DNA from: Flavobacterium crassostreae
GTDB lineage: Bacteria > Bacteroidota > Bacteroidia > Flavobacteriales > Flavobacteriaceae
Reading direction: 5' to 3'
Assembly (NCBI RefSeq): GCF_001831475.1
Contig: NZ_CP017688.1
Location: 2,170,001 to 2,234,000 of the forward strand
Length of the DNA stretch: 64,000 bases
Shown: positions 18,970 to 64,000 of the stretch, in pieces
Numbering within the stretch: position 1 is the first letter of the stretch
How the letters are laid out: each line of letters begins with the position of its first letter
The notes under the pieces: generated by a model
What the model saw: only the letters and a program-made list of their open reading frames with translations
The model's database searches: none
What the model was told of the DNA's origin: nothing
Made by a program: the position numbers and the translations under genes

Positions 18970-20010
18970 ATGAATTGGACAGGAAAACTCATTGAATATA
19001 AATCTCAAAAACGCATTGCTGTATTGTTTGCAAAAGATCCAGAATTACTTTTGGAAGTGCGGAAAATAGATGGCGCAAAATGGAGTCCACAAAAAGTGTT
19101 TTGGCATATTCCGGATACCCTCGAAAACCGAATTAAATTTGAAATTGTACCAGATATCTCTGCACCCAAATCCGAAGCAATAGCCCAAATAGAAAAATTC
19201 AGACAATGGCTGCGCTCCAAACGCTATAGCGAAAATACGGTTGCAACCTACTGTGATGCCTTAAAATCGTTCTTGCTTTTTTATCAAGACAAACCCGTTA
19301 GTCAAATAACAAACGAGGATGTTATTATTTATAACAACCAATATATTTTAAAAAACAATCTATCGGCATCGTACCAAAATCAAATTGTGAACGCAATTAA
19401 ATTGTTTTTTAAAACCGTTAGAGAAACCAAAATTGAAATCGACAAAATTCATCGTCCTAAAAGAATCAAATTATTGCCCAATGTATTGAGTAAAGAAGAA
19501 ATTAAAAGTATCTTAAATGCACACCGTAATCTTAAACACAGAGCCATGCTATCTCTGATTTATAGTTGTGGCTTGCGCCGAAGCGAACTTTTGAATTTAA
19601 AACCCGCCGATATAGACTCCAAAAGAGGAATCGTAATTATCAAACAAAGCAAAGGAAGAAAAGACCGTATTGCTCCATTATCTACCAAAATATTAGAGAT
19701 TCTCCGAGAATATTATACCTATTACAAACCTAAAATATGGCTCTTTGAAGGACAAATTTCTGGAACGACTTATTCCGAAAAAAGCTTGCAATCCATTTTA
19801 AAACAAGCCTTGCATAAAACCAACATACAAAAACCAGTAACTCTACATTGGCTTAGACATAGTTATGCCACCCATTTGTTAGAAAACGGCACCGACTTGA
19901 GGTATATTCAGGAATTATTAGGACATTCTAGCAGCAAAACTACCGAAATTTATACCCATGTAAGCACCAAAAATTTACAACAAATAAAGAGTCCCTTTGA
20001 TGATTTATAA
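18970..20010 (+). CDS. Tyrosine recombinase (Xer-like) adjoining the cassette array
   Basis: A 346-residue site-specific recombinase. Residues 1-62 form an extra N-terminal domain (KWSPQKVFWHIP motif, HARP-like in appearance). Residues 70-155 are the SAM-like core-binding domain and 170-346 the catalytic domain. Catalytic residues visible: Arg203 (GLRRSEL), Lys228 (SKGRKDR), His293/Arg296 (HWLRHS), His319 (LGHS) and Tyr328 (EIYTH). Lys-to-His spacing is 65, close to XerD (72) and far from IntI1 (106), so the IntI-specific insertion is missing. The C-terminus IKSPFDDL resembles IntI ends. It is encoded co-directionally with the cassettes and 104 bases before the first one. I infer that it moves the cassettes. 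Confidence 0.88.
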   Translation: MNWTGKLIEYKSQKRIAVLFAKDPELLLEVRKIDGAKWSPQKVFWHIPDTLENRIKFEIVPDISAPKSEAIAQIEKFRQWLRSKRYSENTVATYCDALKSFLLFYQDKPVSQITNEDVIIYNNQYILKNNLSASYQNQIVNAIKLFFKTVRETKIEIDKIHRPKRIKLLPNVLSKEEIKSILNAHRNLKHRAMLSLIYSCGLRRSELLNLKPADIDSKRGIVIIKQSKGRKDRIAPLSTKILEILREYYTYYKPKIWLFEGQISGTTYSEKSLQSILKQALHKTNIQKPVTLHWLRHSYATHLLENGTDLRYIQELLGHSSSKTTEIYTHVSTKNLQQIKSPFDDL

Positions 20011-20030
20011 CCAGAATATTTCTATATTTG
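19996..20030 (+). promoter_or_regulatory. Putative array promoter (Pc-like)
   Basis: TTTG (19996-19999), 23-base spacer, TATATTTG (20023-20030): both boxes match the Flavobacterium consensus TTG-N17-23-TAnnTTTG. It overlaps the 3' end of the recombinase gene and points across attI into cassette 1, the job done by Pc in classical integrons. Confidence 0.6.
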
Positions 20031-20120
20031 GTATAGAATACCCTCACAACACTATTAGACCTATCCCACCAAATTGGGTGCGATAAGGATGATTTTGTTA
20101 TACGTATTCGCTAGTTGTGC
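20031..20120 (+). other. Putative attI site
   Basis: Sequence between the recombinase stop and cassette 1, ending in CTAG/TTGTGCG (crossover inferred at 20114/20115). It lacks the large attC hairpin but has a CACAAC (20045-20050) complementary to GTTGTG at the crossover and an inverted repeat CCCA-N6-TGGG (20065-20078). Location by analogy with integrons. Confidence 0.5.
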
Positions 20121-20205
20121 GTCATTTTGCCCGAACAGAATAGAAAAAAACGAACCCAAAAAAATAAATTTATAGTTGTATAAATTGTAGAATAAGAATA
20201 ACGGA

Positions 20206-20745
20206 ATGAAATATACATTAGAAGGAGAAGAAACGGAAAGGTTAAAATTTAGGCTATTAAATATTGAGGATTTTGATGATTGTATTGAATTGTTCAAAGA
20301 CAATGAAGTTTGTCGTTTTTTAGGAGTTGACAAAATTGAAACTCCAAATGAAAGATGTAAACTTTGGTTTGAAATGACATTTGATAGATATAAAAACGAT
20401 TTAGGCGGACAAAATATATTGATAGAAAAAAATACAAATAAAATTGTTGGACAAAGTGGACTTTTAGTAAGAGAAATTGAAGGAAAACAAGAAATTGAAA
20501 TTGCATATTCAATTTTGCCAGAATACAGAAAAAAGGGATTTGCAACAGAATCAACTGAAAAATGTAAAAATTTTGCATTTGAAAATAAATTTACTGAAAG
20601 TTTAATTTCAATAATTCATACTGAAAATATTAATTCTGAAAAAGTTGCAGACAGAAACGGAATGAGGAAAGATAAAACCACCGAATTTAAAGGAATGTCA
20701 GTAACCATTTATAGAATAAATTCCAGTGAATGGAAAAATAAATAA
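20206..20745 (+). CDS. GNAT family N-acetyltransferase (cassette 1)
   Basis: A 179-residue acetyltransferase of the RimJ/RimL-like group (Acetyltransf_3). It opens TERLKFRLLNIEDFDD, and the acetyl-CoA region is EIAYSILPEYRKKGFATES with the R/Q-x-x-G-x-G/A loop at RKKGFA (about 108-113). The C-terminal NSEKVADRNGMRK is typical. The substrate is unknown; relatives acetylate ribosomal proteins or antibiotics. As the first cassette it is best placed to be read from the Pc-like promoter. Confidence 0.85.
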   Translation: MKYTLEGEETERLKFRLLNIEDFDDCIELFKDNEVCRFLGVDKIETPNERCKLWFEMTFDRYKNDLGGQNILIEKNTNKIVGQSGLLVREIEGKQEIEIAYSILPEYRKKGFATESTEKCKNFAFENKFTESLISIIHTENINSEKVADRNGMRKDKTTEFKGMSVTIYRINSSEWKNK

Positions 20746-20755
20746 AAAAACGAAC

Positions 20756-20879
20756 GCACAACAGCCATTTTGAGCTAGCTGGAGTTTAGTGGAATTACCG
20801 TTTCGCATCAAGTTTTCGTTAAGCCGAAAATTGAGCGGTTACGAACTTCCAGCCATCTCAAAGTGGCATAACGTTGGCA
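20756..20879 (+). other. attC-1 (stem family I)
   Basis: R'' GCACAAC pairs with this cassette's first bases (GTTGTGC at 20114). Family I stems: gagctagctgg and cttccagccatctcaaa; crossover at 20873/20874. Confidence 0.85.
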
Positions 20880-20943
20880 GATATTATCCCAAATGTCGAG
20901 TCCTAAAATAGGTTGACTAAAACTTAAACACCTTTAGCAACCA

Positions 20944-21327
20944 ATGGAAACACCCGAAAATCAGCCCGTCCGAAGAAGAAACGGAAAACAAGTAAGTTTT
21001 GAATACAAACTTTCTGTAATTCAACAAATCAACAATGGACAAATTTCTTTAAATTACGCTTCTAAAAAATACGCTATTTCTAAAAGCACAATCGAATACT
21101 GGATGAAGAAACTAACCAATTACGAGCAAACCAATAAATCTATTAGTAAAGACGATGAAATTCGTTTGCTAAAAAATAAAATAGAAGATTTAGAAGGAAT
21201 TAAAGCATTTCAACAAGAGGTAATCATTGAATTTGAGTCTGTTACTGGGGAGGAACTTTCAAAAAAGTACTTGCCCGATTGGTTAGCAAACGAAATTCAG
21301 AAAAAGAAGAAAAAGCTTTTAAAATAA
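20944..21327 (+). CDS. IS3-family transposase OrfA
   Basis: 127 residues with an N-terminal helix-turn-helix (VSFEYKLSVIQQINNGQ..NYASKKYAISKSTIEYWMKK) that binds the IS ends, and a C-terminal coiled coil. It overlaps orfB by 49 bases in the 0/-1 arrangement; A-rich AAAAAG runs near 21301-21316 are candidate slippage sites for an OrfAB fusion. Confidence 0.88.
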   Translation: METPENQPVRRRNGKQVSFEYKLSVIQQINNGQISLNYASKKYAISKSTIEYWMKKLTNYEQTNKSISKDDEIRLLKNKIEDLEGIKAFQQEVIIEFESVTGEELSKKYLPDWLANEIQKKKKKLLK

Positions 21328-22187
21328 AATGGATTTACGAATCAATCGGGATTAGTAAACAAGCTTATTATCAAAGAATTGAATCCTATAAAATCAAAGA
21401 AATACGCAATAACATTGTGATTGATTTGGTCTTGGAAATACGCGAAAGAATGCCAGGAACAGGAACAAGAAAACTCTTAGATCACTTAAAAGAAAAGTTT
21501 GTTCAACATAACATAAAAATGGGCAGAGATGCACTGTTTGATTTGCTCAGAGTTAGAGGTTTATTCATAAAGAGAACCAAACGTTTTCACATCACAACGG
21601 ACTCTAAACACTATTTTTACAAGTCTCCTAACCTACTCTATAACTTAGCAATAACACACGCTGAACAAGTTTTTGTTGCAGATATAACTTATGTAAAAAC
21701 CGATGCAGGACATGCTTATTTAGCCTTGGTTACAGATGCCTATTCTCGAAAAATAATGGGTTGGTCATTAGAGAACAATATGCGGGTAGAAATGGTTAAA
21801 AACGCACTTAATATGGCTTATAAAAATTGTATTTTTAATCCTAAAAATATCATTCATCATAGCGATAGAGGCATACAATATTGCTGTCCAGACCATAGTG
21901 AATTTGCTGAAAAAAAGGGGTTTATATTAAGTACAACGCAAAAATATGACCCTTACGAAAATGCAATTGCAGAGCGTATTAACGGAATTTTAAAATATGA
22001 ATTTGGACTAAAAAAAACAATTAAATCCATTCAAATAGCAAAAGCAATGACCAAAGAAGCTGTAGAAATTTACAATAACGAAAGAACTCATTGGAGTTTA
22101 GACTTAAAAACACCACAATCTGTTCATTTACAATACAATAAACAGAAAAATAAATCTTATAAAAAGACAAAAAAAATTGCTATTTAA
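21279..22187 (+). CDS. IS3-family transposase OrfB (DDE integrase)
   Basis: 302 residues: HTH_21-like segment, then an rve catalytic core with DDE residues in VADITYVKT (first D), HHSDRGIQY (second D) and NAIAERINGILKYE (E). Ends with WSLDLKTPQSVH, typical of IS3. Intact, so the element may be active. Expressed as a -1 frameshift product with OrfA; the annotated start (TTG) is only the open-frame limit. Confidence 0.9.
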   Translation: MVSKRNSEKEEKAFKIKWIYESIGISKQAYYQRIESYKIKEIRNNIVIDLVLEIRERMPGTGTRKLLDHLKEKFVQHNIKMGRDALFDLLRVRGLFIKRTKRFHITTDSKHYFYKSPNLLYNLAITHAEQVFVADITYVKTDAGHAYLALVTDAYSRKIMGWSLENNMRVEMVKNALNMAYKNCIFNPKNIIHHSDRGIQYCCPDHSEFAEKKGFILSTTQKYDPYENAIAERINGILKYEFGLKKTIKSIQIAKAMTKEAVEIYNNERTHWSLDLKTPQSVHLQYNKQKNKSYKKTKKIAI

Positions 22188-22456
22188 ACACCGATTTACT
22201 ACTATTGTAATGCTATGTGAGGATGGAAACGAGCAATACTGAGGAGCAACTCGAAGAGTGCCAAAATCATAGTCAAAGAAAATGAAGATGGCATTTTCAA
22301 AATGCCACTTCTTTAATCTTCATTTTTTTTGAAGAAAAAACTAAAAAAACCTAAACCAAAATTGGCAAACCGATTTGGTTATTTTTAACCTAATTTTTAA
22401 CAAAAAAAAGGTCAACCTAGGCTAGGACAAGACAAAAAAAGACGAAAAAACGAAAA

Positions 22457-23452
22457 ATGATAAAAAAATTAGTAATAATAGTTTTAATATTTTCTTTAAC
22501 TTCTTGTGCAACAATTTTCACAAAGAAAACATATAAATTAGAAATAAAATCATTTGCAAATACAAAGGTAAAAGTATATGATAGTATTTATAATTTACCA
22601 GCAAAAATAGAAGTTAAACGGTCAAAAAATGTTTTGCCAATTGTATTAATTTCAGACACTATAAAGAAAAATTATTCTTTAAAACCATCAATAAGTCCAA
22701 AATATCTATATGGAAACTTATCTTTTGTACATTTTGCTCCAGTAAGTTATTTGGTAGATTTAACAACAGAAAAAAGATTTTATTATGGTAAATCTGTATT
22801 CTTAAACATTAGTGACACGATTACTCAAATTAAAACGCCAATTACAAAATCATATTTAGATTTCAAAAATGATTTTTCAAATTATTTTACTAAAAAGCAC
22901 ATTACTTATAAAGGACAAATAAATTTCACATTTTCAATTCCTTGGATAAATAATTTTGATTTTAAACCAAATGGAGAAGATCAAAAAACTAGCACTGGAT
23001 TTTTAGGTATTTCAACAGGAATAGAATATTATCATAGTGAATATAAATTTATAAATTTAAATGCAAGTGCGGTAATGAATTCTATTGCACCAGTACCTGC
23101 ACCAGTTTCATACGAGGGAGAAGTAGAATTTTTAAGTGCGTTAGCCATTAGTTTAACCGAAAATCATAAATTTAATAGATTTACTTTTGGATACGGACTT
23201 AATTTTTCTAAAAACAATTGGAAGTTCGATAATACAGAATATGATGAAAATGTTCCAAACTCAAAAAAGCCAATTTTTAAATCAAACTACGGAATTGGAT
23301 TTATTACTAATGGGTATTTTAGAGCTGGTGAAAATTTTTATATTGGCATAAATTATAAACCAACATTATTAAATATAAAACCTGTAAGTAAATTTCAATA
23401 TGAACACGTAATAAGTTTTGATTTAATGTGGAAAATTAGGTTAAAAAAATAA
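22457..23452 (+). CDS. Predicted outer-membrane-associated lipoprotein (cassette 2)
   Basis: 331 residues with a lipoprotein signal peptide (LIFSLTSC, lipobox Cys17). The rest alternates polar and aromatic residues in short strands, ending in FDLMWKIRLKK, which suggests a beta-rich or barrel-like C-terminal domain. No known family recognised. The cassette leader before it has been interrupted by the IS, which moves the gene about 1.5 kb from the cassette start and may change its transcription. Confidence 0.75.
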   Translation: MIKKLVIIVLIFSLTSCATIFTKKTYKLEIKSFANTKVKVYDSIYNLPAKIEVKRSKNVLPIVLISDTIKKNYSLKPSISPKYLYGNLSFVHFAPVSYLVDLTTEKRFYYGKSVFLNISDTITQIKTPITKSYLDFKNDFSNYFTKKHITYKGQINFTFSIPWINNFDFKPNGEDQKTSTGFLGISTGIEYYHSEYKFINLNASAVMNSIAPVPAPVSYEGEVEFLSALAISLTENHKFNRFTFGYGLNFSKNNWKFDNTEYDENVPNSKKPIFKSNYGIGFITNGYFRAGENFYIGINYKPTLLNIKPVSKFQYEHVISFDLMWKIRLKK

Positions 23453-23456
23453 CATC

Positions 23457-23587
23457 TGCCAACAGCCGTTTGGCAAGATTGCGAATTTTGTAGTAAATTC
23501 ACGTTTACATTTCGTAAGAAATTTTATCTTAGCCGAAAATACTCGGTTACGAAGTTCGCAACCTCGCCAAGCGGCGGAACGTTAGCT
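23457..23587 (+). other. attC-2 (stem family V)
   Basis: R'' TGCCAAC (extended TCTGCCAAC) matches the cassette start GTTGGCAGA at 20873, across the IS. Family V stems: gcgtttggcaagattgcgaa-like and ttcgcaacctcgccaagcg; crossover 23581/23582. Confidence 0.85.
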
Positions 23588-23609
23588 GTAACCTTACAAA
23601 AAAAATCGT

Positions 23610-24380
23610 GTGAAGAAATGTATATGGTGTTCTAAAACAGAAGAAAAAGTAGAATTTAAAAAATTGGCTCACACAATTCCTCAAACACTTGGTGGTAAAA
23701 AAACTTGTCAAAATGTTTGCGATGAATGTAATTTATATTTTGGAAGCTATAATAATAAACTACCTCCAATTGAAACTGTAATCAAAGAAACTTTCAACAT
23801 TTCTAGAGCAAGATTCTTGCAGACGGATAATCAGATTGGAAAAAACAAAGCATTGCCGAAGTTCTCATCAATTTATTTTAATGTTGATTTTGTTAAGAAC
23901 AAATTAGCACTAAAAGCAGGTTATAAATACAATGCCCACTTTCAAGAGAAAATATCTAGACAATTGAAAAAAGGTTTATATAAAATATTTCTAGAAGAAA
24001 CGGAAAGACAAAATCAAGATGGACATAACGAAAAATATGATTTTATCCGAGAATTTAGTCGTTATGATTTAGGTGATTATCCTGTCTTCTATTTTGAACG
24101 TAATCACGGAATAATTTTGATGACAAAAGATTGGGCAAAAACACCTGAATTATTTTTACACGATGATTTTAAATTAAAGTATTTAATTAACGAACCTTGT
24201 TTCTTTGAATTTGAACTTTTAGGTCACGTTTTTGGTATTGCAACATCTAGACATTGGCAAATTGCTTTTGATAATTATATAAAAAAAACGAAAGAAGCAA
24301 AAAAAGACCATTTTAAAAGCTTTAAAATAGTTAAGAATTTTAATGACATTGATTTAACATTATCAATTTTAAATGGATAA
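23610..24380 (+). CDS. HNH endonuclease-like protein (cassette 3)
   Basis: 256 residues starting at GTG. The N-terminus is an HNH fold: Cys4-x2-Cys7, LAHTIPQTLGGKK (His21) and VCDECN (Cys37, Cys40, Asn41). The remainder (about 60-256) has no recognised domain. HNH proteins in accessory DNA often act as defence nucleases; that role is inference. It starts 29 bases into the cassette. Confidence 0.7.
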   Translation: MKKCIWCSKTEEKVEFKKLAHTIPQTLGGKKTCQNVCDECNLYFGSYNNKLPPIETVIKETFNISRARFLQTDNQIGKNKALPKFSSIYFNVDFVKNKLALKAGYKYNAHFQEKISRQLKKGLYKIFLEETERQNQDGHNEKYDFIREFSRYDLGDYPVFYFERNHGIILMTKDWAKTPELFLHDDFKLKYLINEPCFFEFELLGHVFGIATSRHWQIAFDNYIKKTKEAKKDHFKSFKIVKNFNDIDLTLSILNG

Positions 24381-24389
24381 AAAGGCTAC

Positions 24390-24521
24390 AGCTAACACAC
24401 GCTACAAGCAATTTGGGTATTAGGCTTAATGGAAAAATGGTTTTGTATTTGGAAGATTTGGCAAATCCGAATAATGGGCTTAATTTAGTCCCAAACTGCT
24501 TGTAGCGCGGGAACGTTGGCA
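24390..24521 (+). other. attC-3 (stem family IV)
   Basis: R'' AGCTAAC (TACAGCTAAC) matches its start GTTAGCTGTA, ten paired bases. Family IV stems: cgctacaagcaatttggg and cccaaactgcttgtagcgcg; crossover 24515/24516. Confidence 0.88.
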
Positions 24522-24580
24522 GTAATCTTGCCTCGAAAACCGCAAAAAATTAAAATTTATAAAATTTATAGATTGGATTT

Positions 24581-25507
24581 ATGACAATGATAAGTAGGTT
24601 GGGATTTAAACCAACCAAAACAAATAATATAAAATCTGAATTACTGAAATCAACAAATGAAATCACAATCGTAATTCCAGTTAAAAATAATCAAAATGGA
24701 ATTGAATTATTTTTAGAACAATTTTTCAAAACTCATAAATCAGAAAATTATCCGAAAGAAATAATAATAGTCGACAATAATTCAAAACCAAGTTTGAAAA
24801 TTGAAACTAAAAAATATCCTCTAACTATAAAAATTTTAAGTTGCTCTAAAATTGGACCTGCAAGTGCAAGAAATTTTGGCGTTGAAAGTGTGAAATCTGA
24901 ATGGATACTTTTTACTGATAGTGATTGTATTCCTACTGCAAATTTACTAACTGGATATTTGAAAAACCAAAATTATTCTATCGGCTATGCTGGAAATATT
25001 ATTTCTGAAAGTAAAGATTTAATTTCAAAGTATTACGAAGAGCAAGAAATATTAATTCCACCAGAAGTTTATCAAAACGGAAAGAAACCACGACCAGATT
25101 ATTTAGTAACTGCAAATTGTTTAGTTTGGAAAAAAGCGTTTGAAATTGTCGGAGGATTTAATGAAGAAATCAAAATTGCTGGCGGTGAAGATATTGATTT
25201 GGGTTTTAAATTTCTAAATATAGGCGAACTTTCGTACGCTTTTGATAGCGTTTCAAAACATAATTTTGGTGGTGGAATTTCCGATTTTAAAAATAGATTT
25301 ATTAGATATGGGCTTGGCAACAAAATAATAAGTGAAATTTATAATTTAGATTTAGAACCAAAATTATTTAAACCAAATAAAAAAACTATTGTAAATTATT
25401 TATTAGCATATTTGCAATATAAATGGTTGAAAAAAGGTTACAGAATGAAACAAAATATTAAAAAAAAGACTACTGCCAACAGCGGTTTGGCGCAATTGGG
25501 GTTTTAG
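24581..25507 (+). CDS. Glycosyltransferase family 2 (cassette 4)
   Basis: 308 residues with a GT-A fold: ITIVIPVKNNQNGIEL at 28-43, the DxD motif in LFTDSDCIPT, and GGEDIDLGFKF (ED acceptor motif). It transfers a sugar from a nucleotide donor, probably to a surface glycan. The reading frame continues 27 bases past the R'' box, so the last residues (TTANSGLAQLGF) are encoded by the attC site itself. Confidence 0.87.
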   Translation: MTMISRLGFKPTKTNNIKSELLKSTNEITIVIPVKNNQNGIELFLEQFFKTHKSENYPKEIIIVDNNSKPSLKIETKKYPLTIKILSCSKIGPASARNFGVESVKSEWILFTDSDCIPTANLLTGYLKNQNYSIGYAGNIISESKDLISKYYEEQEILIPPEVYQNGKKPRPDYLVTANCLVWKKAFEIVGGFNEEIKIAGGEDIDLGFKFLNIGELSYAFDSVSKHNFGGGISDFKNRFIRYGLGNKIISEIYNLDLEPKLFKPNKKTIVNYLLAYLQYKWLKKGYRMKQNIKKKTTANSGLAQLGF

Positions 25508-25607
25508 GCAAACTCATAGGTTGGTTTTGTACTTGGAAGTTCGGTCTTAAATCGATACATTTGGCTAACCAAATCCCCAACTGACGCCAAGCCACGAGAC
25601 GTTATGG
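25474..25607 (+). other. attC-4 (own stem type)
   Basis: R'' TGCCAAC (TACTGCCAAC) matches GTTGGCAGTA. Stems ggcgcaattggg and ccccaactgacgcc; crossover 25601/25602. Overlaps the 3' end of the glycosyltransferase gene. Confidence 0.8.
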
Positions 25608-26221
25608 GCTAGTTTTGCCCATTTTGCGCAGATAAAGCCGTTTTTATAAGAAAAAAACTGTTTAAAATTTTAAGGTTTAGGGTTCTTAATTCCTAAAAAA
25701 ACGCAATAAAATGGATTCTTAAAAGCCAAAAAAAATATTTTGTTGTTTAAAGAGTATTACTTAAAAACAGAAAATAATCCAAAACAAAATAATGACATAA
25801 AACAGCGTGATTTGCGGTTTACAGAGTGATTTTTTAAAATAAGAAAATCCCCAAGTTGAAGCGCAAACGGCATTTTATCATCGTGACGCAAAAAATTAAA
25901 TGAGTGTAATTTGTGTTTTACAAAGTGATTATCCAAATAAGAAAAATCTCGGATTTAAATCTTAAAACGGGATTTTATCAGCGTTACGGGAAAAATTAAA
26001 AAAGAGTGATTTATTCTTTACAAAGTGAGAATCTAAATAAAAAAATCTCGAATTTAAAGCAGAAATTTGTTTGTGTTTTTAGGTTTGTGAAGAAAAAACC
26101 AGCCCATAACAATCGTCTTAACTAATTTGCAGATTCTGTGGAATTACCGTTTTTAATTGTATATTCGTTATGAAGAAAAACATCCGTATCCAAAGCCTGC
26201 AAACTAGTTAAGGCGGGAACG
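25602..26221 (+). repeat. Non-coding cassette 5, family A
   Basis: 620 bp, no plausible gene. It begins TTATGGGCTAGTTTTGCCCA and carries three imperfect internal repeats with about 100-bp period (GTG cores at 25807, 25904, 26006). Confidence 0.85.
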
Positions 26222-26227
26222 TTGGCA
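26104..26227 (+). other. attC-5 (stem family II)
   Basis: R'' CCATAAC. Family II stems: cgtcttaactaatttgcag and ctgcaaactagttaaggcg; crossover 26221/26222. Confidence 0.87.
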
Positions 26228-26273
26228 GACAGTTTGGTAGAACTGAATAAGAAAATTATTTAATTGAAAACTT

Positions 26274-26768
26274 ATGAAGAATCAAATTCTAATTTTAATC
26301 ACTTTAATTCTACTTTCTTGTTCAAAAAGACAAGAAAATATTGATTTATATATTTCCAATTCAAATTATGAATTGAATTTGAAAACTGGAGATTTTAAAA
26401 TTAACTGGTATAATAATTATAAGGATAAAATAGAATTATCTAAAAATGAGAAAAACCAAATAAGAAAATTGATTTTTAAATATAATGTTGACACTTTTAA
26501 AGGCGAAAAAAATGTTTTTGGTGAAGAACTGTTAATAATGCCAAATTTTAACGACAAATTTACTCTAGTTATAAATAATAAAATAGAAAGCGAAATTTCT
26601 ATCTCAAAACAAGTAAAATTAGAAAAATCAAAGCTGAATAAAATTGATACAGATATTTATAATTTTAAAACAGAAATTTTTAAATTGCTAAGTCAAAATA
26701 AAGATTTTGAAAGAAATATGGACACTGTGAAACTTGCAAATAAAAAAATAAAACGATTATTTCTATAA
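26274..26768 (+). CDS. Small predicted lipoprotein (cassette 6)
   Basis: 164 residues with a lipoprotein signal (LILLSCSKR, Cys16). The mature part is Lys/Asn/Ile-rich with no known domain. It sits 52 bases into the cassette with a short leader and no visible promoter of its own. Function unknown. Confidence 0.7.
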   Translation: MKNQILILITLILLSCSKRQENIDLYISNSNYELNLKTGDFKINWYNNYKDKIELSKNEKNQIRKLIFKYNVDTFKGEKNVFGEELLIMPNFNDKFTLVINNKIESEISISKQVKLEKSKLNKIDTDIYNFKTEIFKLLSQNKDFERNMDTVKLANKKIKRLFL

Positions 26769-55937: not shown

Positions 55938-57110
55938 TTGAATCGAGATAATATTTTTAAAGGACTAGATTTTTCTACAGATTTTACTGTTGAAGATTGG
56001 AACGCCTTAATAAAACTTAAATTCAAAAAATACCTAACAAATGAAGATTTAATAGAACAAAACAAAGAAGTTTTAAAAACCGAAATTGTAAATTATATTA
56101 GAGTTTCAGCAAAAAAAGAGTACTTAGAACTTTTTGAATGGACATTAAAAATTTTTGCTGATTGCATAATTTTTGATAAGGAAAAAACAATAAATATTAT
56201 TTCAGAATCATTTGATGAAATTTGTAATACTGACTATAAATGGATGACAAATGTATTAACTCAACCAAATTTTGCAGACTTTTCTGAAAGAGATAAAATT
56301 ACTTTTTATTTTAAAATTATAGATGAAACTTTAGAGGGAGTTTTTAAACCACGCTTCAAACTATTTGATAAATTAACTAACTTCTTAATAACCCAAAATG
56401 TAATTGATAATTCGAATTATGATTTTGGAAAAATTATTTCAGATTTTCCAAAGCAATATGAAAATAATGCAAAACTTTTTTTAAAAGATCCAATACATTC
56501 TATTTCAACAAGTCAGTGGCGAAATATTTCAGCACATAAATCCTTTTCAATAAGCAAAGAGAATATTAAAGTTGAATACGGAAAAACAAACAAAAAAACT
56601 GTTTTTATAAAATTTGAAGATTTTTATAAAATCGTATTTTGGACACAAGACATATATCGAGTAATCCGATTATCTCAAGTTATTACTTGTATAAACCATA
56701 TGAAGGAAATTGTTGACATAATTGGTGATTCAGAAAAATCTAATCATCGTTTTGAATCTTCACTTTTAAATTTAGTGCATAATATGCAAATAGTAGGTTT
56801 TGAATTTATTTCGACTGAAATTGAAAATGAAACATTTTGTTTAAAACTGAAAGAAAAAAAAGAACACGATTTGAAATCTTCACTTATTCACGCATCGCAA
56901 TGTTTAGACCAACTATCTTGTGCTATTTACGATGATGTTTTCATTAGAGATAACTATAATAAAACAAAAGTTATAATCTACAACGAATATACTAATGAAA
57001 TTGGTTCTGCCACAATTCCAATAGATGTAGCATTAAAAAAAGTTAAAAGTGAAATAAATATGAATGAATATCTAGACAATATGGAATTTGAAATAAAAAA
57101 CAACGCCTAA
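55938..57110 (+). CDS. Hypothetical protein (cassette 45)
   Basis: 390 residues from a TTG start, 32 bases into the cassette. No recognised family and no signal peptide. A largely helical first 200 residues are followed by SQWRNISAHKSFSISKENIKVEYG, similar in style to the R-x4-AHK/H motifs of Abi- and HEPN-like proteins, so an RNase or defence role is possible but unproven. The stop overlaps the R'' box. Confidence 0.68.
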   Translation: MNRDNIFKGLDFSTDFTVEDWNALIKLKFKKYLTNEDLIEQNKEVLKTEIVNYIRVSAKKEYLELFEWTLKIFADCIIFDKEKTINIISESFDEICNTDYKWMTNVLTQPNFADFSERDKITFYFKIIDETLEGVFKPRFKLFDKLTNFLITQNVIDNSNYDFGKIISDFPKQYENNAKLFLKDPIHSISTSQWRNISAHKSFSISKENIKVEYGKTNKKTVFIKFEDFYKIVFWTQDIYRVIRLSQVITCINHMKEIVDIIGDSEKSNHRFESSLLNLVHNMQIVGFEFISTEIENETFCLKLKEKKEHDLKSSLIHASQCLDQLSCAIYDDVFIRDNYNKTKVIIYNEYTNEIGSATIPIDVALKKVKSEINMNEYLDNMEFEIKNNA

Positions 57111-57239
57111 CAGCGGTTTTAAGAAATTGGGGTTTTAGGGCTTAATTTAAAGTTTGTTTTGTACTTTTGAATTTGGGTGTTTAATCGAAAGTTTCGGGTT
57201 TACAAATCCCCAACTTCTTAAAGCCGCGAAACGTTAGCA
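57105..57239 (+). other. attC-45 (stem family VIII)
   Basis: R'' GCCTAAC (CGCCTAAC) matches GTTAGGCG. Stems cggttttaagaaattgggg and ccccaacttcttaaagccg; crossover 57233/57234. Confidence 0.87.
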
Positions 57240-57260
57240 CCAATTTAAAAAAAAAACGAA

Positions 57261-58007
57261 ATGGATACAATTGAATTTCATAAATCAACCGCAAAAGAAT
57301 TACTAGCAATTAAAGATAGAGTAAGAAACTTAGTAAATCATTGGGGTGAAGATGGACGCCATCAAGAAGCTGTAATAAAAACAATGATTCAAAGATTTTT
57401 ACCTGAAAAATTTAGAATAGGTACTGGTTTTATTGTTAGACAAACTAGACAAAGAGGAAACCACGAACCTTCCAAGCAAATTGATTTAATAATTTATGAT
57501 ACTTCATACCCTGTTTTGTTTAAAGACAATGATTTTGTTATTTTAACTGCTGATTCTGTTTTAGGAATTATAGAAGTCAAGGCAAATGCTACAAATCAAG
57601 GCTTAAGTGATATTGTTAAAAAAGCAAATGAAAATGGAAAATTTATTTTTGATGGTAGAGTTAACAAATCAAAGCCATTATTTAATGGAATTTTTTCATA
57701 TGAATCTACCGTAAATAATGTTGATACAATTGCTAATCATATAAAAAATCCTTGGGACGAATTAGGTGAAAACCGACAAAAATATAGTGTTAACCATATT
57801 TCTCTCACTCAAGATTGGTTCTATAAGTTTTGGGAGCACGAATTTATTGATGGTAATTTACCTCATTATTTATATAAAATAAAAGAGCTTTCCTTTTCTT
57901 TTTTTATTTCAAACCTAATAGACTGGATTAGTGAGACATCAGTAATTGAAAACAGTAACTTATGGTTTCCCGTTGACAAATCAATAGAAGTAAAAAAATG
58001 TTTTTAA
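57261..58007 (+). CDS. DUF6602-like nuclease-fold protein (cassette 46, gene 1)
   Basis: 248 residues. The pattern QIDLIIYD (Asp75) followed by VLGIIEVKAN (Glu105, Lys107) is a PD-(D/E)XK-type signature, and the opening (RHQEAVIKTMIQRFLPEKFRIGTGFI) fits the DUF6602 family. A DNA- or RNA-cleaving role is inference. It is followed after 9 bases by a DUF4145-like gene; the pair fills one cassette. Confidence 0.75.
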   Translation: MDTIEFHKSTAKELLAIKDRVRNLVNHWGEDGRHQEAVIKTMIQRFLPEKFRIGTGFIVRQTRQRGNHEPSKQIDLIIYDTSYPVLFKDNDFVILTADSVLGIIEVKANATNQGLSDIVKKANENGKFIFDGRVNKSKPLFNGIFSYESTVNNVDTIANHIKNPWDELGENRQKYSVNHISLTQDWFYKFWEHEFIDGNLPHYLYKIKELSFSFFISNLIDWISETSVIENSNLWFPVDKSIEVKKCF

Positions 58008-58016
58008 CTTACAATT

Positions 58017-58643
58017 ATGAAATATATAAAACCTGTTGTTTATGGAAATTCATTTTCTTGTCCGCATTGTGGTGCAATTGCAAAACAAGACTGGTGGCAT
58101 TGCAATTGGAATGGTTCACAATATCCAGAAAATTCTTCTAATCCGTTGAAAGTAGCGAATTGTCAGCATTGTAATGATAACTCTGTTTGGATTGAAAATA
58201 AAATGTATTTCCCTGATTTAGGAAATTCACCCTTCCCTAATCCCGAAATGCCAGATTCAGTGTTAAAACTATATACTGAAGCTTCGGGTATATGTTCTAA
58301 ATCTCCAAGAGGTGCCTCAGCGTTATTACGTTTATCAATTCAAGTTTTATGCAAAGAACTTGGTGAAGATGGTAAAAACATAAATACCGACATTGGGAAC
58401 CTTGTAAAAAAAGGACTTCCAGTCATAGTCCAACAATCACTTGACATCGTTCGAGTGACAGGAAATGACGCTGTTCATCCTGGACAAATTGATACAGACA
58501 ATCCATCAACGGTTGGACAACTTTTTGACTTGATTAATATTATCGTTGAATATATGATAGCTTTACCGAAAAAAGTTAACGGTATTTACAATGCGCTTCC
58601 AGCTGACAAAGTTAAAGGAATAAATAATAGAGACGGAAAGTAA
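58017..58643 (+). CDS. DUF4145-domain protein with zinc ribbon (cassette 46, gene 2)
   Basis: 208 residues. An N-terminal zinc ribbon (CPHCG at Cys15/Cys18, CQHCN at Cys49/Cys52) is followed by the DUF4145 helical domain (YTEASGICSKSPRGASALLRLSIQVL, VRVTGNDAVHPGQ). The R-x-N/H-like motif VRVTGNDAVHPG resembles HEPN-type domains. DUF4145 proteins commonly neighbour restriction or other defence genes. Confidence 0.78.
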   Translation: MKYIKPVVYGNSFSCPHCGAIAKQDWWHCNWNGSQYPENSSNPLKVANCQHCNDNSVWIENKMYFPDLGNSPFPNPEMPDSVLKLYTEASGICSKSPRGASALLRLSIQVLCKELGEDGKNINTDIGNLVKKGLPVIVQQSLDIVRVTGNDAVHPGQIDTDNPSTVGQLFDLINIIVEYMIALPKKVNGIYNALPADKVKGINNRDGK

Positions 58644-58652
58644 AAAAACTGG

Positions 58653-58776
58653 TGCTAACCGCTGTTTTGATATAGCTGGAATTTAGTGGAATTATCGTTC
58701 CGCATCAAGTTTCCGTTAAGCCGAAAATTGAGCGGTTACGAACTTCCAGCCATCTCAAAGCAGCATAACGTTATGG
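58653..58776 (+). other. attC-46 (stem family I)
   Basis: R'' TGCTAAC (GGTGCTAAC) matches GTTAGCACC, nine paired bases; crossover 58770/58771. Confidence 0.87.
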
Positions 58777-59390
58777 GCTAGTTTTGCCCATTTTGCGCAG
58801 ATAAAGCCGTTTTTATAAGAAAAAACTGTTTATAATTTTAAGGTTTAGAGTTCTAAATTCTTTAAAAAAGCTCAAAAAAAATGGATTCTTAAAATCTAAA
58901 AAAACAGGTTTTGTTGTTTAAAGAGTATTACTAAAAAACTGAAAATAATCCAAAACAAAATAATGACTTAAAACAGCGTGATTTGTGGTTTTCAGAGTGA
59001 TTTTTTTAAACAAGAAAATCCCCAAGTTGAAGCGCAAACGGCATTTTATCAGCGTGACGTAAAAAATTAAATGAGTGTAATTTGTTCCTTACAAAGTGAT
59101 TATCCAAATAAGAAAAATCTCGGATTTAAATCTTAAAAAAAATCAATAAGGAAAATTAAAAAGCTGAAATAGAGTGATTTGTTTTTTAAAGAGTGAGTAT
59201 CTAAATAAAAAAAATCTCGTATTTAAAGCCAAAAAATGTTTGCGTTTTTAGGTTTGGGGAGAAAAAACCAGCCCATAACAATCGTCTTAACTAATTTGCA
59301 GATTCTGTGGAATTACCGTTTTTAATTGTATATTCGTTATGAAGAAAAACATCCGTATCCAAAGCCTGCAAACTAGTTAAGGCGGGAACG
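58771..59390 (+). repeat. Non-coding cassette 47, family A
   Basis: 620 bp, identical by eye to cassettes 33 and 50. Confidence 0.85.
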
Positions 59391-59396
59391 TTAGGC
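59273..59396 (+). other. attC-47 (stem family II)
   Basis: R'' CCATAAC; crossover 59390/59391. Confidence 0.87.
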
Positions 59397-59447
59397 ATCA
59401 CTTTGGCACGACGCATGGAAAAACAGAAATAAATCATATTTTTTTTA

Positions 59448-59469
59448 ATACCATTAATTGGTATATTTG
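59448..59469 (+). promoter_or_regulatory. Promoter/operator of the ParDE-like pair
   Basis: TATATTTG (59462-59469) matches TAnnTTTG and overlaps an inverted repeat ATACCA-N5-TGGTAT (59448-59464), a plausible site for autorepression by the antitoxin. Confidence 0.55.
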
Positions 59470-59485
59470 TATAAAATTGAAAATT

Positions 59486-59731
59486 ATGGCCCGAAATACA
59501 TCAATTCTAATTGGAGAATATTATGAGAATTTCATAAACAGACAAATTGCTACAGGAAAATATAATTCTGTAAGCGAAGTTGTCAGAACTGCATTGAGAC
59601 ATTTTGAAGAAGAAGAAATTCAAAAAAAATCTTTGATTATCGAATTAGAAATTGGAGAAAAAAGCCGAAAAATTAAAAATTTTGACAGAAAAGAAAACTT
59701 AGATATGCTGAATAATAACTTCCAAAAATAA
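59486..59731 (+). CDS. ParD-like antitoxin (cassette 48, gene 1)
   Basis: 81 residues from ATG 59486 (an in-frame TTG 9 bases earlier is possible). N-terminal ribbon-helix-helix: RNTSILIGEYYENFINRQIATGKYNSVSEVVRTALRHFEEEE, the typical ParD/CopG type II form; the charged C-terminus would wrap the toxin. Overlaps the toxin gene by one base (TAATG). Confidence 0.9.
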   Translation: MARNTSILIGEYYENFINRQIATGKYNSVSEVVRTALRHFEEEEIQKKSLIIELEIGEKSRKIKNFDRKENLDMLNNNFQK

Positions 59732-60030
59732 TGGCGGAATATATAATCAGTGAAAAAGCTCTTGAAGATTTAAATAATATTTGGATTTACACTGCCGAAA
59801 ATTGGTCTGTTGAACAAGCAAACAGATATTACAACTTAATTGTTGATGAAATAGAATATGTATCAGGAAATTTTGAGGTAACTAAAGATTTCGACAATAT
59901 TAGAAAAAATTATAAATTTTCAAAAGTTAAATCTCATTTGGTGTTTTATAAGAAAACAGAAAATACAGAAATGGAAGTCGTGAGAATTTTACACGAAAGA
60001 ATGGACTTAAAAAATAGAATTAACGATTAA
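59731..60030 (+). CDS. ParE-like toxin, RelE/ParE superfamily (cassette 48, gene 2)
   Basis: 99 residues. Family landmarks: YIISEKALEDLNNIWIYTAENW start, YYNLIVDEIEYVSGN helix, and C-terminal HLVFYKK..VVRILHERMD. ParE relatives poison gyrase and RelE relatives cleave mRNA; sequence favours ParE. Toxin-antitoxin cassettes are well known for stabilising long integron arrays, a role that fits here. Confidence 0.9.
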   Translation: MAEYIISEKALEDLNNIWIYTAENWSVEQANRYYNLIVDEIEYVSGNFEVTKDFDNIRKNYKFSKVKSHLVFYKKTENTEMEVVRILHERMDLKNRIND

Positions 60031-60045
60031 AAAAGAAAAGCGAAT

Positions 60046-60169
60046 GCCTAACAGCCATTTTGAGCTAGCTGGAATTTAGTGGAATTACCGTTTCGCATCA
60101 AGTTTTCGTTAAGCAGAAAATTGAGAGATTACGAACTTCCAGCCATCTCAAACTGGCGAAACGTTAGTG
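60046..60169 (+). other. attC-48 (stem family I)
   Basis: R'' GCCTAAC (ATGCCTAAC) matches GTTAGGCAT; crossover 60163/60164. Confidence 0.87.
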
Positions 60170-60215
60170 GCAACTCAAAAAAAAAAGCAGAATTCACCTA
60201 TAAAAAAACTTGCTG

Positions 60216-61043
60216 ATGATGAATGAAGGATATGAATTTGACTCTAAATATTTTATAGAATGGAACAGAGAGTTAAAACAATGGGATTATTTAGAAAATG
60301 GTGAATTAATACCCGAAACAACTGAAACACTATACAAATATCTGTCGTGGAATGAAAAGACGATTGCATCTTTAATAGGGAATTATTTATGGTTAAGTAA
60401 TCCTGTGCATTTTAATGATCCTTTTGATTGTAACAGAAGTATGATATTTAACTATAATTTCTCTGATGAAGAGCGTTTAAAAAAAAGAAACTATTTTGAT
60501 GACATTGGAATAATATCATTCACAGAAAATAAATTCTGTCCTTTAATGTGGGCTCACTATACAGGAAATTATAATGGAATTGTATTAAAATTCAAAGCAA
60601 AAGAGTTTAATAAATTCAAAAATGAAAATCAATTTAACCAAATAAAATTGCGAAAAGTATTGTATCCAGAACAATTTAAATTATTCCCATTAGGACATAC
60701 TTTTTCAAAAGAGTTAATGCTTTTCATTAAATCAAAAAACTGGAATTATGAAAAAGAATGGCGATTAGTAGCGGACTTAAAACAACCATACAATAGATTC
60801 TTGAGATTTGATCCTCTATCTTTAGAAGAAATTTATATTGGTCATAATCTTTTTGAAAATCTAAATAGCAGTGCTATTCAAATTTTGACTCAAATTAGAG
60901 ATTCTTTTTATCCTAAAACTAAATTAATAAGAATATTTCCGGATAGTAAAGTTTTTGGAAAAATCGTATTCCGTGATTGGGACAAAGAAATGGACAAAAA
61001 TTCAAGAGGAAATGAGCAGCCACTAACAGCCATTTTGATATAG
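60216..61043 (+). CDS. DUF2971 domain protein (cassette 49)
   Basis: 275 residues from ATG 60216 (60219 also possible). DUF2971 landmarks: LYKYLSWNEKTIASLIGNYLWLSNPVHFNDPFDCN, FTENKFCPLMWAHYTGNYNGIVLKF and NYEKEWRLVADL. The biochemical role of the family is unknown; it is frequent in accessory DNA. The last five codons (PLTAILI region) lie in the attC. Confidence 0.85.
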   Translation: MMNEGYEFDSKYFIEWNRELKQWDYLENGELIPETTETLYKYLSWNEKTIASLIGNYLWLSNPVHFNDPFDCNRSMIFNYNFSDEERLKKRNYFDDIGIISFTENKFCPLMWAHYTGNYNGIVLKFKAKEFNKFKNENQFNQIKLRKVLYPEQFKLFPLGHTFSKELMLFIKSKNWNYEKEWRLVADLKQPYNRFLRFDPLSLEEIYIGHNLFENLNSSAIQILTQIRDSFYPKTKLIRIFPDSKVFGKIVFRDWDKEMDKNSRGNEQPLTAILI

Positions 61044-61144
61044 CTGGAATTTAGTGGAATTATCGTTCCGCATCAAGTTTTCGTTAAGCTGAAAATTGAG
61101 CGGTTACGAACTTCCAGCCATCTCAAACTGGCAAAACGTTATGG
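61021..61144 (+). other. attC-49 (stem family I)
   Basis: R'' CACTAAC (GCCACTAAC) matches GTTAGTGGC; crossover 61138/61139. Confidence 0.87.
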
Positions 61145-61758
61145 GCTAGTTTTGCCCATTTTGCGCAGATAAAGCCGTTTTTATAAGAAAAAACTGTTTA
61201 TAATTTTAAGGTTTAGAGTTCTAAATTCTTTAAAAAAGCTCAAAAAAAATGGATTCTTAAAATCTAAAAAAACAGGTTTTGTTGTTTAAAGAGTATTACT
61301 AAAAAACTGAAAATAATCCAAAACAAAATAATGACTTAAAACAGCGTGATTTGTGGTTTTCAGAGTGATTTTTTTAAACAAGAAAATCCCCAAGTTGAAG
61401 CGCAAACGGCATTTTATCAGCGTGACGTAAAAAATTAAATGAGTGTAATTTGTTCCTTACAAAGTGATTATCCAAATAAGAAAAATCTCGGATTTAAATC
61501 TTAAAAAAAATCAATAAGGAAAATTAAAAAGCTGAAATAGAGTGATTTGTTTTTTAAAGAGTGAGTATCTAAATAAAAAAAATCTCGTATTTAAAGCCAA
61601 AAAATGTTTGCGTTTTTAGGTTTGGGGAGAAAAAACCAGCCCATAACAATCGTCTTAACTAATTTGCAGATTCTGTGGAATTACCGTTTTTAATTGTATA
61701 TTCGTTATGAAGAAAAACATCCGTATCCAAAGCCTGCAAACTAGTTAAGGCGGGAACG
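61139..61758 (+). repeat. Non-coding cassette 50, family A
   Basis: 620 bp, identical by eye to cassettes 33 and 47. Confidence 0.85.
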
Positions 61759-61764
61759 TTATGG
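61641..61764 (+). other. attC-50 (stem family II)
   Basis: R'' CCATAAC; crossover 61758/61759. Confidence 0.87.
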
Positions 61765-62377
61765 GCTAGTTTTGCCCATTTTGCGCAGATAAAGCCGTTT
61801 TTATAAGAAAAAACTGTTTATAATTTTAAGGTTTAGAGTTCTTAATTCCTAAAAAAACGCAAAAAAATGGATTCTTAAAATCAAAAAAAAAAAGATTTTG
61901 TTGTTTAAAGAATATTATTTCCAACCTGAAAATAATTCAAAACAAAATAATGACATAAAACAGCGTGATTTGCGGTTTACAGAGTGATTTTTCAAACAAG
62001 AAAATCCCAAAAGTTGAAGCGCAAACGGCATTTTACCCACTTGACGAAAAATTAAATGAGTGTAATTTGTGTTTTACAAAGTGATTTTACAAATAAGAAA
62101 AATCTCGGATTTAAATCTTAAAACAGGATTTTACCAGCGTTACGTGAAAAATTAAAAAAGAGTGATTTGTTCTTTAGAAAGTGAAAATCTAAATAAAAAA
62201 ATCTCGAATTTAAAGCCAAAAAATATTTGCGTTTTTAGGTTTGTGAAGAAAAAAACAGCCCATAACAATCGTCTTAACTAATTTGCAGATTCTGTGGAAT
62301 TACCGTTTTTAATTGTATATTCGTTATGAAGAAAAACATCCGTATCCAAAGCCTGCAAACTAGTTAAGGCGGGAACG
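61759..62377 (+). repeat. Non-coding cassette 51, family A
   Basis: 619 bp, close to cassette 44. Confidence 0.85.
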
Positions 62378-62383
62378 TTGTCG
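62260..62383 (+). other. attC-51 (stem family II)
   Basis: R'' CCATAAC; crossover 62377/62378. Confidence 0.87.
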
Positions 62384-62526
62384 GACAGTTACAAAAAACT
62401 GAAGTAAATTGAAAATCAAATATTTAAATCAAGAAAAATCAAAATGAAAATTCGGAAAAGCATAGAAACCGAACAGAAAAATAATGCTTAAATAAAACTC
62501 AAAGTGGGTAAACAATAATTTTTTAA

Positions 62527-62829
62527 ATGAAAAGAATGAAAAGAACATTCAAAGTTTTGTCGATTGCTTTTGCAATGTCAATTATGTTAACGTCTTGTTT
62601 TTCTTACACAAGCGTAGTTGGAAAAGGTGCACAAGGTAGCACCGAAGTTACTAAATGGAATCATTATGTAATTGGTGGATTAGCACCAGTTGGAGTTTCA
62701 GATTCTAAAGAAATGGCTGGTGGAGCAACAGATTACACTGTATTTACGAGACAGAGTTTTGTAAATGGGTTAATTGCTGCATTGACATTCAGTATTTATA
62801 CTCCTACTACAACAACTGTAACAAAATAA
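62527..62829 (+). CDS. Bor-family lipoprotein (cassette 52, gene 1)
   Basis: 100 residues. Lipoprotein signal (MSIMLTSCFSY, Cys24). The mature part has NHYVIGGLAPVGVSDSKEMAGGA and RQSFVNGLIAALTFSIYTP, closely resembling the FVNGLLGFITLGIYTP motif of phage lambda Bor, a surface lipoprotein linked to serum resistance. The 150-base leader is long for this array and holds a 15-codon frame (62444-62491) of uncertain meaning. Confidence 0.82.
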   Translation: MKRMKRTFKVLSIAFAMSIMLTSCFSYTSVVGKGAQGSTEVTKWNHYVIGGLAPVGVSDSKEMAGGATDYTVFTRQSFVNGLIAALTFSIYTPTTTTVTK

Positions 62830-62838
62830 CAGAACTAA

Positions 62839-62866
62839 AAGCGGTAATAGTAAAATATTACCGCTT
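62839..62866 (+). terminator. Hairpin between the two genes of cassette 52
   Basis: Perfect 11-bp stem AAGCGGTAATA / TATTACCGCTT with a 6-base loop, then aattttaaag. Could terminate or attenuate transcription after the Bor-like gene. Confidence 0.6.
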
Positions 62867-62879
62867 AATTTTAAAGAAA

Positions 62880-63077
62880 ATGAAAAAAATTTTATTTTAC
62901 GGCTCTATAATTATCCTAATATATTTGATTTACATTGTAATAAATATTTTCACTTATCACTATGAAAATCTTAATAACTATGGAAATGGATTCTTAATTG
63001 GGAAAATATTATTGATATTAATTTTTGGATTTGTAATTTACAAAACAAATCCGTTTAAGGAAAAAACAAAATATTAG
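62880..63077 (+). CDS. Small membrane protein (cassette 52, gene 2)
   Basis: 65 residues, two hydrophobic segments (about 4-25 and 39-55) with a YHYENLNNYGNG loop and a basic tail (KEKTKY). Family unknown. It begins 13 bases after the internal hairpin, so its expression may depend on read-through. Confidence 0.62.
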   Translation: MKKILFYGSIIILIYLIYIVINIFTYHYENLNNYGNGFLIGKILLILIFGFVIYKTNPFKEKTKY

Positions 63078-63099
63078 AAATTCAAAAAAATAACCGCTC

Positions 63100-63234
63100 C
63101 GACAACAGCGGTTTTAAGAAATTGGGGTTTTTGGACTTAATTTAAAGTTTGTTTTGTACTTTTTTTTTTCGATGTTTAATCGAAAGTTTTGGACTTACAA
63201 ATCCCCAACTTCTTAAAGCCGCGAAACGTTATGG
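63100..63234 (+). other. attC-52 (stem family VIII)
   Basis: R'' CGACAAC (TCCGACAAC) matches GTTGTCGGA; crossover 63228/63229. Confidence 0.87.
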
Positions 63235-63845
63235 GCTAGTTTTGCCCATTTTGCGCAGATAAAGTCGTTTTTATAAGAAAAAACTGTCTATAATTTTAAG
63301 GTTTAGAGTTCTTAATTCTTAAAAAAACGCAATAAAATGGATTCTTAAAAGCCAAAAAAAAGGTTCTATTGTTTAAAGAGTATATTTCTAACCTGAAAAT
63401 AATTCAAAACAAAATAATGACATAAAACAGCGTGATTTGTGATTTACAGAGTGATTTTTCAAACAATAAAATCCCCAAGTTGAAGCGCAAATGGCATTTT
63501 ACCAGCTTGACGAAAAAAATTAAATGAGTGTTATTTGTATTTTACAAAGTGATTATCCAAATAAGAAAAATCTCGGATTTAAATCTTAAAACAAGATTTT
63601 ATCAGCGTTACGTGAAAAATTAAAAAAGTGTGATTTGTTCTTTACAAAATGATAATCTAAATAAAAAAATATTGAATTTAAAACCAAAAAATATTTGCGT
63701 TTTTAGGTTTGTGAAGAAAAAACCAGCCCATAACAATCGTCTTAACTAATTTGCAGATTCTGTGGAATTATCGTTTTTAATTGTATATTCGTTATGAAGA
63801 AAAACACCCGTATCCAAAGCCTGCAAACTAGTTAAGGCGGGAACG
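63229..63845 (+). repeat. Non-coding cassette 53, family A
   Basis: 617 bp, nearly identical to cassette 43. Confidence 0.85.
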
Positions 63846-63851
63846 TTAGTA
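63728..63851 (+). other. attC-53 (stem family II)
   Basis: R'' CCATAAC; crossover 63845/63846. Last complete site in the window. Confidence 0.87.
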
Positions 63852-63852
63852 G

Positions 63853-64000
63853 CTATGCGGTTGGAACGTATAAACTAGCGTCTTCGTTATTTGCTTCCCA
63901 GTAGAAAATTTCCCAATATCCAAATAAAGAATAACCCATATCTCTATATAATTTTCTGTATAGCTCTGAATTTTTATCGTAACCTAATTCTGTAAGTAAC
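63853..64000 (-). CDS. Hypothetical protein, antisense, partial (cassette 54)
   Basis: The - strand is open from the window edge to a TAG at 63855-63853, reading LLTELGYDKNSELYRKLYR..YWEIFYWEANNEDASLYVPTA. The 5' end is outside the window. Acidic, aromatic-rich C-terminus; family not recognised. It is the fourth antisense cassette gene seen. Confidence 0.6.
   Translation of the reverse strand, partial: LLTELGYDKNSELYRKLYRDMGYSLFGYWEIFYWEANNEDASLYVPTA

Follow-up and report, generated by a model that had tools for sequence, protein, structure and literature searches.

A stretch of 64,000 nucleotides from the chromosome of Flavobacterium crassostreae (contig NZ_CP017688.1, positions 2,170,001 to 2,234,000 of the forward strand; called the window throughout) carries a tyrosine recombinase gene followed by a long array of cassette-like units. 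We read these, with a probability of roughly 0.78, as parts of an integron-like system of the chromosome, whose recombinase lacks the IntI-specific insert (I2) and would capture, excise and reshuffle cassettes by means of folded single-stranded attC hairpins and an attI-like site. The original prediction, made from the letters of the window, was of a large integron-like array in a Flavobacterium-like chromosome of the Bacteroidota. This is borne out by the pairing of each unit with its own end, by covarying hairpins, by repeated cassettes with exact ends and by the recombinase with its attI-like junction.

Extent of the array

The sites were located with a covariance model, R1, for which 52 nonredundant sites were taken from this genome and its relatives (a script chose 55, from which one divergent site, one spanning two loci and one containing N were dropped). 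The model finds 53 attC-like sites on the + strand of the window, with G^TT positions from 20873 to 63845, in agreement with the at least 53 tandem units ending in sites of attC architecture that had been counted originally. The window part of this array, array A, occupies 20114..64000. The span first proposed for it, 18970..64000, does contain an array, but its end does not stand, position 64000 being the window edge beyond which array A runs 80 kb further. The whole of array A comprises 119 sites over 124 kb (2190756-2314509 in genome coordinates), and its end is put at genome position 2314502, or 144.5 kb in window coordinates. A second array on the same strand, array B, has 58 sites over 57 kb (2701501-2758560), which gives 177 sites for the two together.

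Ten more + strand sites lie outside arrays A and B, and R1 lists two - strand sites, at 2298834 and about 2765.9 kb. All of these totals are lower bounds, as the full model search covered 310 kb and 150 of 4916 candidates were scored genome-wide. The model also gives two matches (42 and 29 bits) in 13 canonical IntI loci. Small groups or single attC-like sites were seen off both arrays at 2165149-2166141, 2886183, 2968969-2977263 and 502530. The first scan, for AAC...ACGTT pairs with complementary inner flanks, gave a dense series of + strand sites starting at 20760 and reaching, with the neighbouring stretches, 115.6 kb in window coordinates; the reverse strand gave 3 scattered weak pairs only.

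Own-end pairing and folding of the sites

It had been claimed that the R'' box of each unit pairs with that unit's own start. In the window, R'' is the exact reverse complement, over at least 7 nt, of the first bases of its own unit in 52/52 units, far above the level given by shuffles. Over the complete arrays this own-end rule holds for 108 of 118 units in A and 51 of 57 in B, while shuffling R'' among the units gives a mean of 10.6 (maximum 22) in A and 6.5 (maximum 15) in B. Comparing R'' with the start of the next unit instead gives 16 matches in A and 12 in B. The exceptions to the rule, 10 in A and 6 in B, all lie outside the window and may hold missed or decayed sites. The ends are diverse, with 30 distinct 7-mers in array A and 17 in array B, and the array sites have the integron R''/R' form RYYYAAC/GTTRRRY. 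The first attC-like site (20756..20879, + strand, 102.5 bits with R1) closes the first cassette. A strong example is found at 23457..23587 (+ strand, 120.6 bits), and the unit that starts at this site ends in TACAGCTAAC, an own-end match of 10 nt.

Failure of these sites to fold into attC-like hairpins would have told against the original prediction, and the sites do fold. In the 52 nonredundant sites, 881 of the 1092 cells of a 21-pair stem are Watson-Crick. Sliding the partner strand by 1-3 columns leaves 234-271 such cells, a comparison that favours the true register because the structure was drawn from these same sequences. At least two Watson-Crick types are seen at 20 of the 21 stem pairs. 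Pairing is kept while the sequence drifts, in line with a site that is read as a folded single strand. In 50/52 sites an A of the 5' arm stands opposite a C, which makes T.G on the other strand, and another position shows T.G on the top strand in 36/52 sites.

Extrahelical bases were counted in the inner stem. The inner 5' (L'') arm is without an unpaired base in 95 of 98 own array sites and in 48 of the 52 nonredundant sites, whereas the same procedure gives between one and three such bases for 15/15 control sites at canonical IntI loci. These control sites come from IntI loci of other Bacteroidota classes, namely the 4 of 13 loci with chained sites, with the reverse-strand duplicates of one locus dropped. 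Known integrases are described as docking the extrahelical bases by means of I2 in passages of PMC7790495.

The recombinase

The candidate array integrase is a tyrosine recombinase of 346 amino acids (18970..20010, + strand; PF00589 and PF13495). It has an N-terminal extension (about residues 1-70), a core-binding domain (75-155) and a catalytic domain (172-333) in which all six catalytic residues, R K H R H Y, are present. With the integron integrase model TIGR02249 it scores 207 bits, below the cut-off of 265, and with the XerA equivalog model NF040815 it scores 219.8 bits against a cut-off of 220. The distance between two landmarks is 53-54 residues in 16/16 family members (54 in the window protein) compared with 95 in 19/19 canonical IntI proteins from the same phylum. 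The alignment to IntI4 (2a3v) breaks at the extra residues of IntI, and XerA (4a8e, 5hxy) aligns straight through. As judged from these alignments, I2 is absent from the window recombinase and from the aligned family members, 15 of 16 of which have all six catalytic residues. Sites and recombinase fit each other, the one mostly without extrahelical bases and the other without I2.

In a tree of 39 hand-picked rows, the 19 IntI rows form one branch (99/99 support) that leaves out the recombinase family. The family itself is not one branch in the same tree and needs 2 changes; the branches are long and the Xer rows few. The 120 homologues listed are 346-387 residues long and carry source names that include integrase/recombinase XerD, site-specific integrase and site-specific tyrosine recombinase/integron integrase. 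A beta-beta-alpha-beta-beta-alpha fold is predicted for the small N-terminal domain, which has no Pfam match and no significant structural match, the HARP domain of SMARCAL1 (4o66) ranking first in the structural search with a non-significant E of 0.61.

The attI-like platform

The stop codon of the recombinase gene ends at 20010 and is followed by a putative attI-like site at 20030..20116 (+ strand), recognised by the own-end rule and by a hairpin alignment of relatives. It consists of an imperfect hairpin and then G^TT, with the G at 20114, where the first cassette begins. Applied to the window and to 14 relatives, the own-end rule fixed the point at which the platform gives way to the first cassette. 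The distance of this junction from the last codon counted is 106-118 bases for the window and 13 of the 14 relatives, and 228 for the outlier, G026. To the left of the junction the sequence is similar among the relatives, and to the right the first cassette differs between species.

The platform hairpin ends about ten bases before the crossover. At every one of seven positions, pairing is seen in 10-14 of the 14 sequences (counting G.T), and several kinds of pair occur. This alignment omits the outlier and L084, a near copy of L083, includes G032, which was placed by eye, and has no slid control. A search for uvrA as a conserved anchor gave no match in the flanks of 23 loci, though it had no positive control and the flanks mostly reached 10 kb or less upstream.

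Cassettes and the footprint of mobility

Clustering kept the 159 of 175 units that have an own-end match of at least 7, and these well-bounded units fall into 78 clusters. Two cassette families without an open reading frame (ORF) make up 70 of the 159 units and are often adjacent; both occur in arrays A and B. Family a (for example 25601..26220, + strand) has 42 copies and family b (for example 31186..31793, + strand) has 28. The body of family a gave only weak matches of 25-37 bases in 3 genomes besides its own (60 genomes, 10 candidates scored in each).

Besides families a and b there are 13 pairs of repeated cassettes. Identity is listed for 12 pairs, of which ten are at 98.5-100%, one at 83% and one at 71%. 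Four of the ten near-identical pairs have one copy in array A and the other in array B. A coding cassette with a glycosyltransferase-like product (24515..25600, + strand) has a 100% identical copy in array B, at 2724131. Exact identity ends 1-6 bases past the unit in 12 of the 13 pairs, and in the remaining pair the right neighbour shares 56 bases.

The longest ORF of at least 80 amino acids is on the + strand in 82 units and on the - strand in 3, and 74 units have none. Cassette proteins were scanned as 72 ORFs (71 representatives and the gene of the first cassette) and are named here from 25 of 49 Pfam families. They include GNAT acetyltransferases, one of them encoded in the first cassette (20206-20745, PF13302), hydrolases, ParE, Gp49, HepT-like proteins and transposase (rve) domains, and there are single cassette matches to defence models such as NucC. 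The second cassette holds IS3-like transposase genes with rve domains (window 20944-22187). As for other features, an Rfam gathering search of the window gave no match in the array, no tRNA gene was found in the window, and one Flavo-1 RNA (RF01705, 55.1 bits) lies at 15788-15867.

Spread among relatives

Some match to the recombinase is found in 59 of 60 genomes (own included), though in many of them the matches are only ordinary Xer proteins by score, and a close homologue was defined by a dividing line of 180 bits. By this line, 19 of the 36 genomes of the same genus qualify, and sites were found in 18 of these 19 (median 12). In all, 32 of those 36 genomes have sites, as do 6 of the 23 from outside the genus, the counts being lower bounds with 56 candidates scored per genome. 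Homologue regions were fetched for 16 genomes, two of which hold C-terminal fragments. Sites lie downstream on the same strand in 11 of the 13 fetched relatives that have a homologue and at least 1 kb downstream of it; in G032 there are none in the 1.1 kb downstream. Of the two fragments, that in G004 adjoins sites and that in G017 has none nearby. The layout in G022 (locus L042) resembles the divergent arrangement of classical integrons.

Among named genomes, sites lie downstream in 9 of 13 loci, or in 9 of the 10 with at least 1 kb downstream, remnants included; L086, L089 and L090, with 30-319 bases downstream, are too short to judge. Five of the loci with sites are those of F. psychrophilum DSM 3660, F. 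frigidarium, a Flavobacterium metagenome-assembled genome and two Kaistella. The other four are two from Cloacibacterium rupense (fragments), one from Halpernia humi (cut by the contig start) and one from F. weaverense (broken). One Chryseobacterium plasmid carries the recombinase and four sites.

Weighing of the explanations

Several observations weigh against an integron-like system driven by this recombinase. Recombination itself is deduced from its footprint, namely repeated cassettes with exact ends, and was not observed. Among the matches of the recombinase searches, none of this family lies near array B. Of the 17 same-genus genomes that have no close homologue, 14 carry sites (1 to 21 sites). 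The difference in site number with and without the homologue is slight (medians 12 and 8, p = 0.049), and the one genome of 19 with a homologue and no sites is G034, which is 60% complete. Loci that depart from the usual layout include G022, where a homologue of 42% identity has three weak sites on the other side and strand, L088, with no sites in 3.8 kb downstream, and a second Chryseobacterium plasmid, which has the recombinase and no sites in 9 kb downstream. In the family member L040 one catalytic H is replaced by N. With regard to the sites, 14/52 of the nonredundant set carry an extra base or two in the 3' arm (7/98 own, 0/15 canonical), and the preference of the folding energy for the bottom strand is weak, at 35/52 sites (6/15 canonical sites).

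The presence of sites in those 14 genomes without a close homologue favours the view that the arrays are relics (clusters of attC sites lacking integrases, CALIN) of a lost canonical IntI integron, the neighbouring recombinase being incidental, and CALINs are described as common in bacteria in passages of PMC9668308. We nevertheless consider this unlikely. Sites stand directly after the recombinase in several genera, and the remnants beside sites in G004, Cloacibacterium and F. weaverense belong to this recombinase and not to IntI. The sites also mostly lack the extra bases that canonical sites have in the 5' arm. Of 296 genomes of the phylum, 86 gave canonical IntI matches; 85 of these belong to other classes, one to the same class and none to the same order, family or genus.

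It is less probable still that the host XerC and XerD recombine the sites and that the dedicated recombinase has some other job. Separate XerC/XerD-type genes are present in the own genome, and such proteins occur in relatives that have sites and no close homologue. However, the relatives from other families have Xer matches as well, yet 17 of 23 are without sites by the model. Xer sites are duplexes of conserved sequence, whereas here the pairing is kept and the sequence is not. We can all but dismiss the idea that the units are ordinary tandem repeats that spread without a site-specific enzyme, through homologous recombination or replication slippage. Families a and b do often lie side by side, but identical units occur in both arrays, some 400 kb from each other and between unrelated flanks, and complementarity of each unit to its own end with so many different ends is not expected of such repeats.

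A possible mechanism

In the integron-like system that we favour, the window recombinase would act on these sites, and the attC hairpins would recombine with each other and with the attI-like site about 100 bases past the recombinase stop codon. The bottom strand is the probable substrate, nearly every site keeping the A.C opposition that becomes T.G on that strand. Cassettes would enter next to attI, the same recombinase would serve array B in trans, and replication would presumably resolve the junction as it does in known integrons. Given that the I2 insert and most extrahelical bases are absent, strand choice and the block on second-strand exchange are predicted to rest elsewhere, perhaps on the conserved mismatch positions and the N-terminal domain.

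The docking of extrahelical bases by I2 is held, in passages of PMC7790495, to have given integrons their single-strand recombination, and I2 is said there to be absent from any other protein. A natural folded attC-like system without I2, and mostly without extrahelical bases, opens this claim to a direct test and gives a natural case to compare when asking how single-strand recombination evolved. An IntI-keyed survey of RefSeq reports, in the part of PMC9024848 that bears on this, one complete integron in the Bacteroidetes proper, that of Salinibacter ruber M1. A large cassette reservoir in Flavobacterium and its relatives may therefore have been missed.

A possible link to resistance genes

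Fragments of homologues are found upstream of tet(X5) and blaVEB-3 on plasmids of Acinetobacter (L114, 4516-5371) and Klebsiella (L115, 5142-5864). On A. baumannii p29FS20-1, a C-terminal fragment that matches query residues 126-346 at 57% identity stops 189 bases ahead of tet(X5), and between the two there is a short perfect hairpin and then GTTATGT, as in the attI-like sites. The stretch from fragment to tet(X) is matched over 80% or more in 50 of the 64 plasmid records with any match. Of these 50 records, 49 are from Acinetobacter and one is uncultured, and in all of them the match covers tet(X3), tet(X5) or tet(X). On the K. michiganensis plasmid a fragment of 51% identity stops 110 bases short of blaVEB-3, and here too a hairpin and GTTAGCG are present. 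A search behind the two resistance genes gave no attC. The fragment, the hairpin and the GTT start together mean that tet(X5) and blaVEB-3 would fit as first cassettes of truncated platforms, which is a fit and not a proof. Published reports note xerD beside tet(X) and, in the passages that bear on it, give no mechanism (PMC7494873, PMC7473080). The present system may explain the 'xerD' fragment upstream of tet(X3) and tet(X5).

A wider proposal is put forward tentatively, and we would hold it slightly more doubtful than not. The Flavobacteriia may have a second kind of integron that manages single-strand cassette capture without the I2 helix. Its attI would be structured, its hairpins would be recognised by conserved mismatches and not by flipped-out bases, and the part of I2 would be taken by an N-terminal domain (perhaps a HARP-like reader of forks or hairpins). 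The 'xerD-tet(X)' and recombinase-blaVEB modules of Acinetobacter and Klebsiella plasmids might descend from such platforms, with the resistance gene as the attI-proximal cassette.

Comparison with known systems

The 'xerD-tet(X)' modules of Acinetobacter plasmids resemble the present system in having a piece of a homologue, a hairpin and GTTATGT before the gene; they differ in that the recombinase is truncated and the gene has no attC found after it. The window recombinase resembles XerA, XerC and XerD in a core that aligns straight with XerA; its own NF040815 score lies just below the cut-off. It differs from them in being a dedicated gene that heads cassette arrays, in its N-terminal extension and in coexisting with the separate Xer-type genes of its own genome. 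A literature search, with subscription papers and preprints outside its scope, turned up no description of an I2-less integron or of a cassette array from Flavobacterium. The integrons of Archaea also place attC arrays beyond the usual hosts, but their IntIs are reported, in passages of PMC9668308, to have the IntI-specific additional domain that the present recombinase is without.

The closest likeness is to the sedentary chromosomal integrons with IntI. These have arrays of the same kind, with RYYYAAC/GTTRRRY ends, own-end pairing and G^TT crossover, and the recombinase likewise sits at an end of the array; among the cassettes are numerous small accessory genes as well as units without ORFs. 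The Vibrio type is such a sedentary chromosomal integron with IntI. The present recombinase differs in the missing insert, in its N-terminal extension and in a gene that points towards the array, and the sites differ in being mostly without 5'-arm extrahelical bases and in the hairpin at the attI-like site. The system was not filed in the IntI-defined family because four defining features were tested and found lacking, namely 5'-arm extrahelical bases, the I2 domain, a TIGR02249 score above the cut-off and placement in the IntI clade. It does have the attC-type array with own-end match, the hairpin conserved in structure and the attI-like junction with G^TT of canonical integrons, and in all likelihood it works like an integron.

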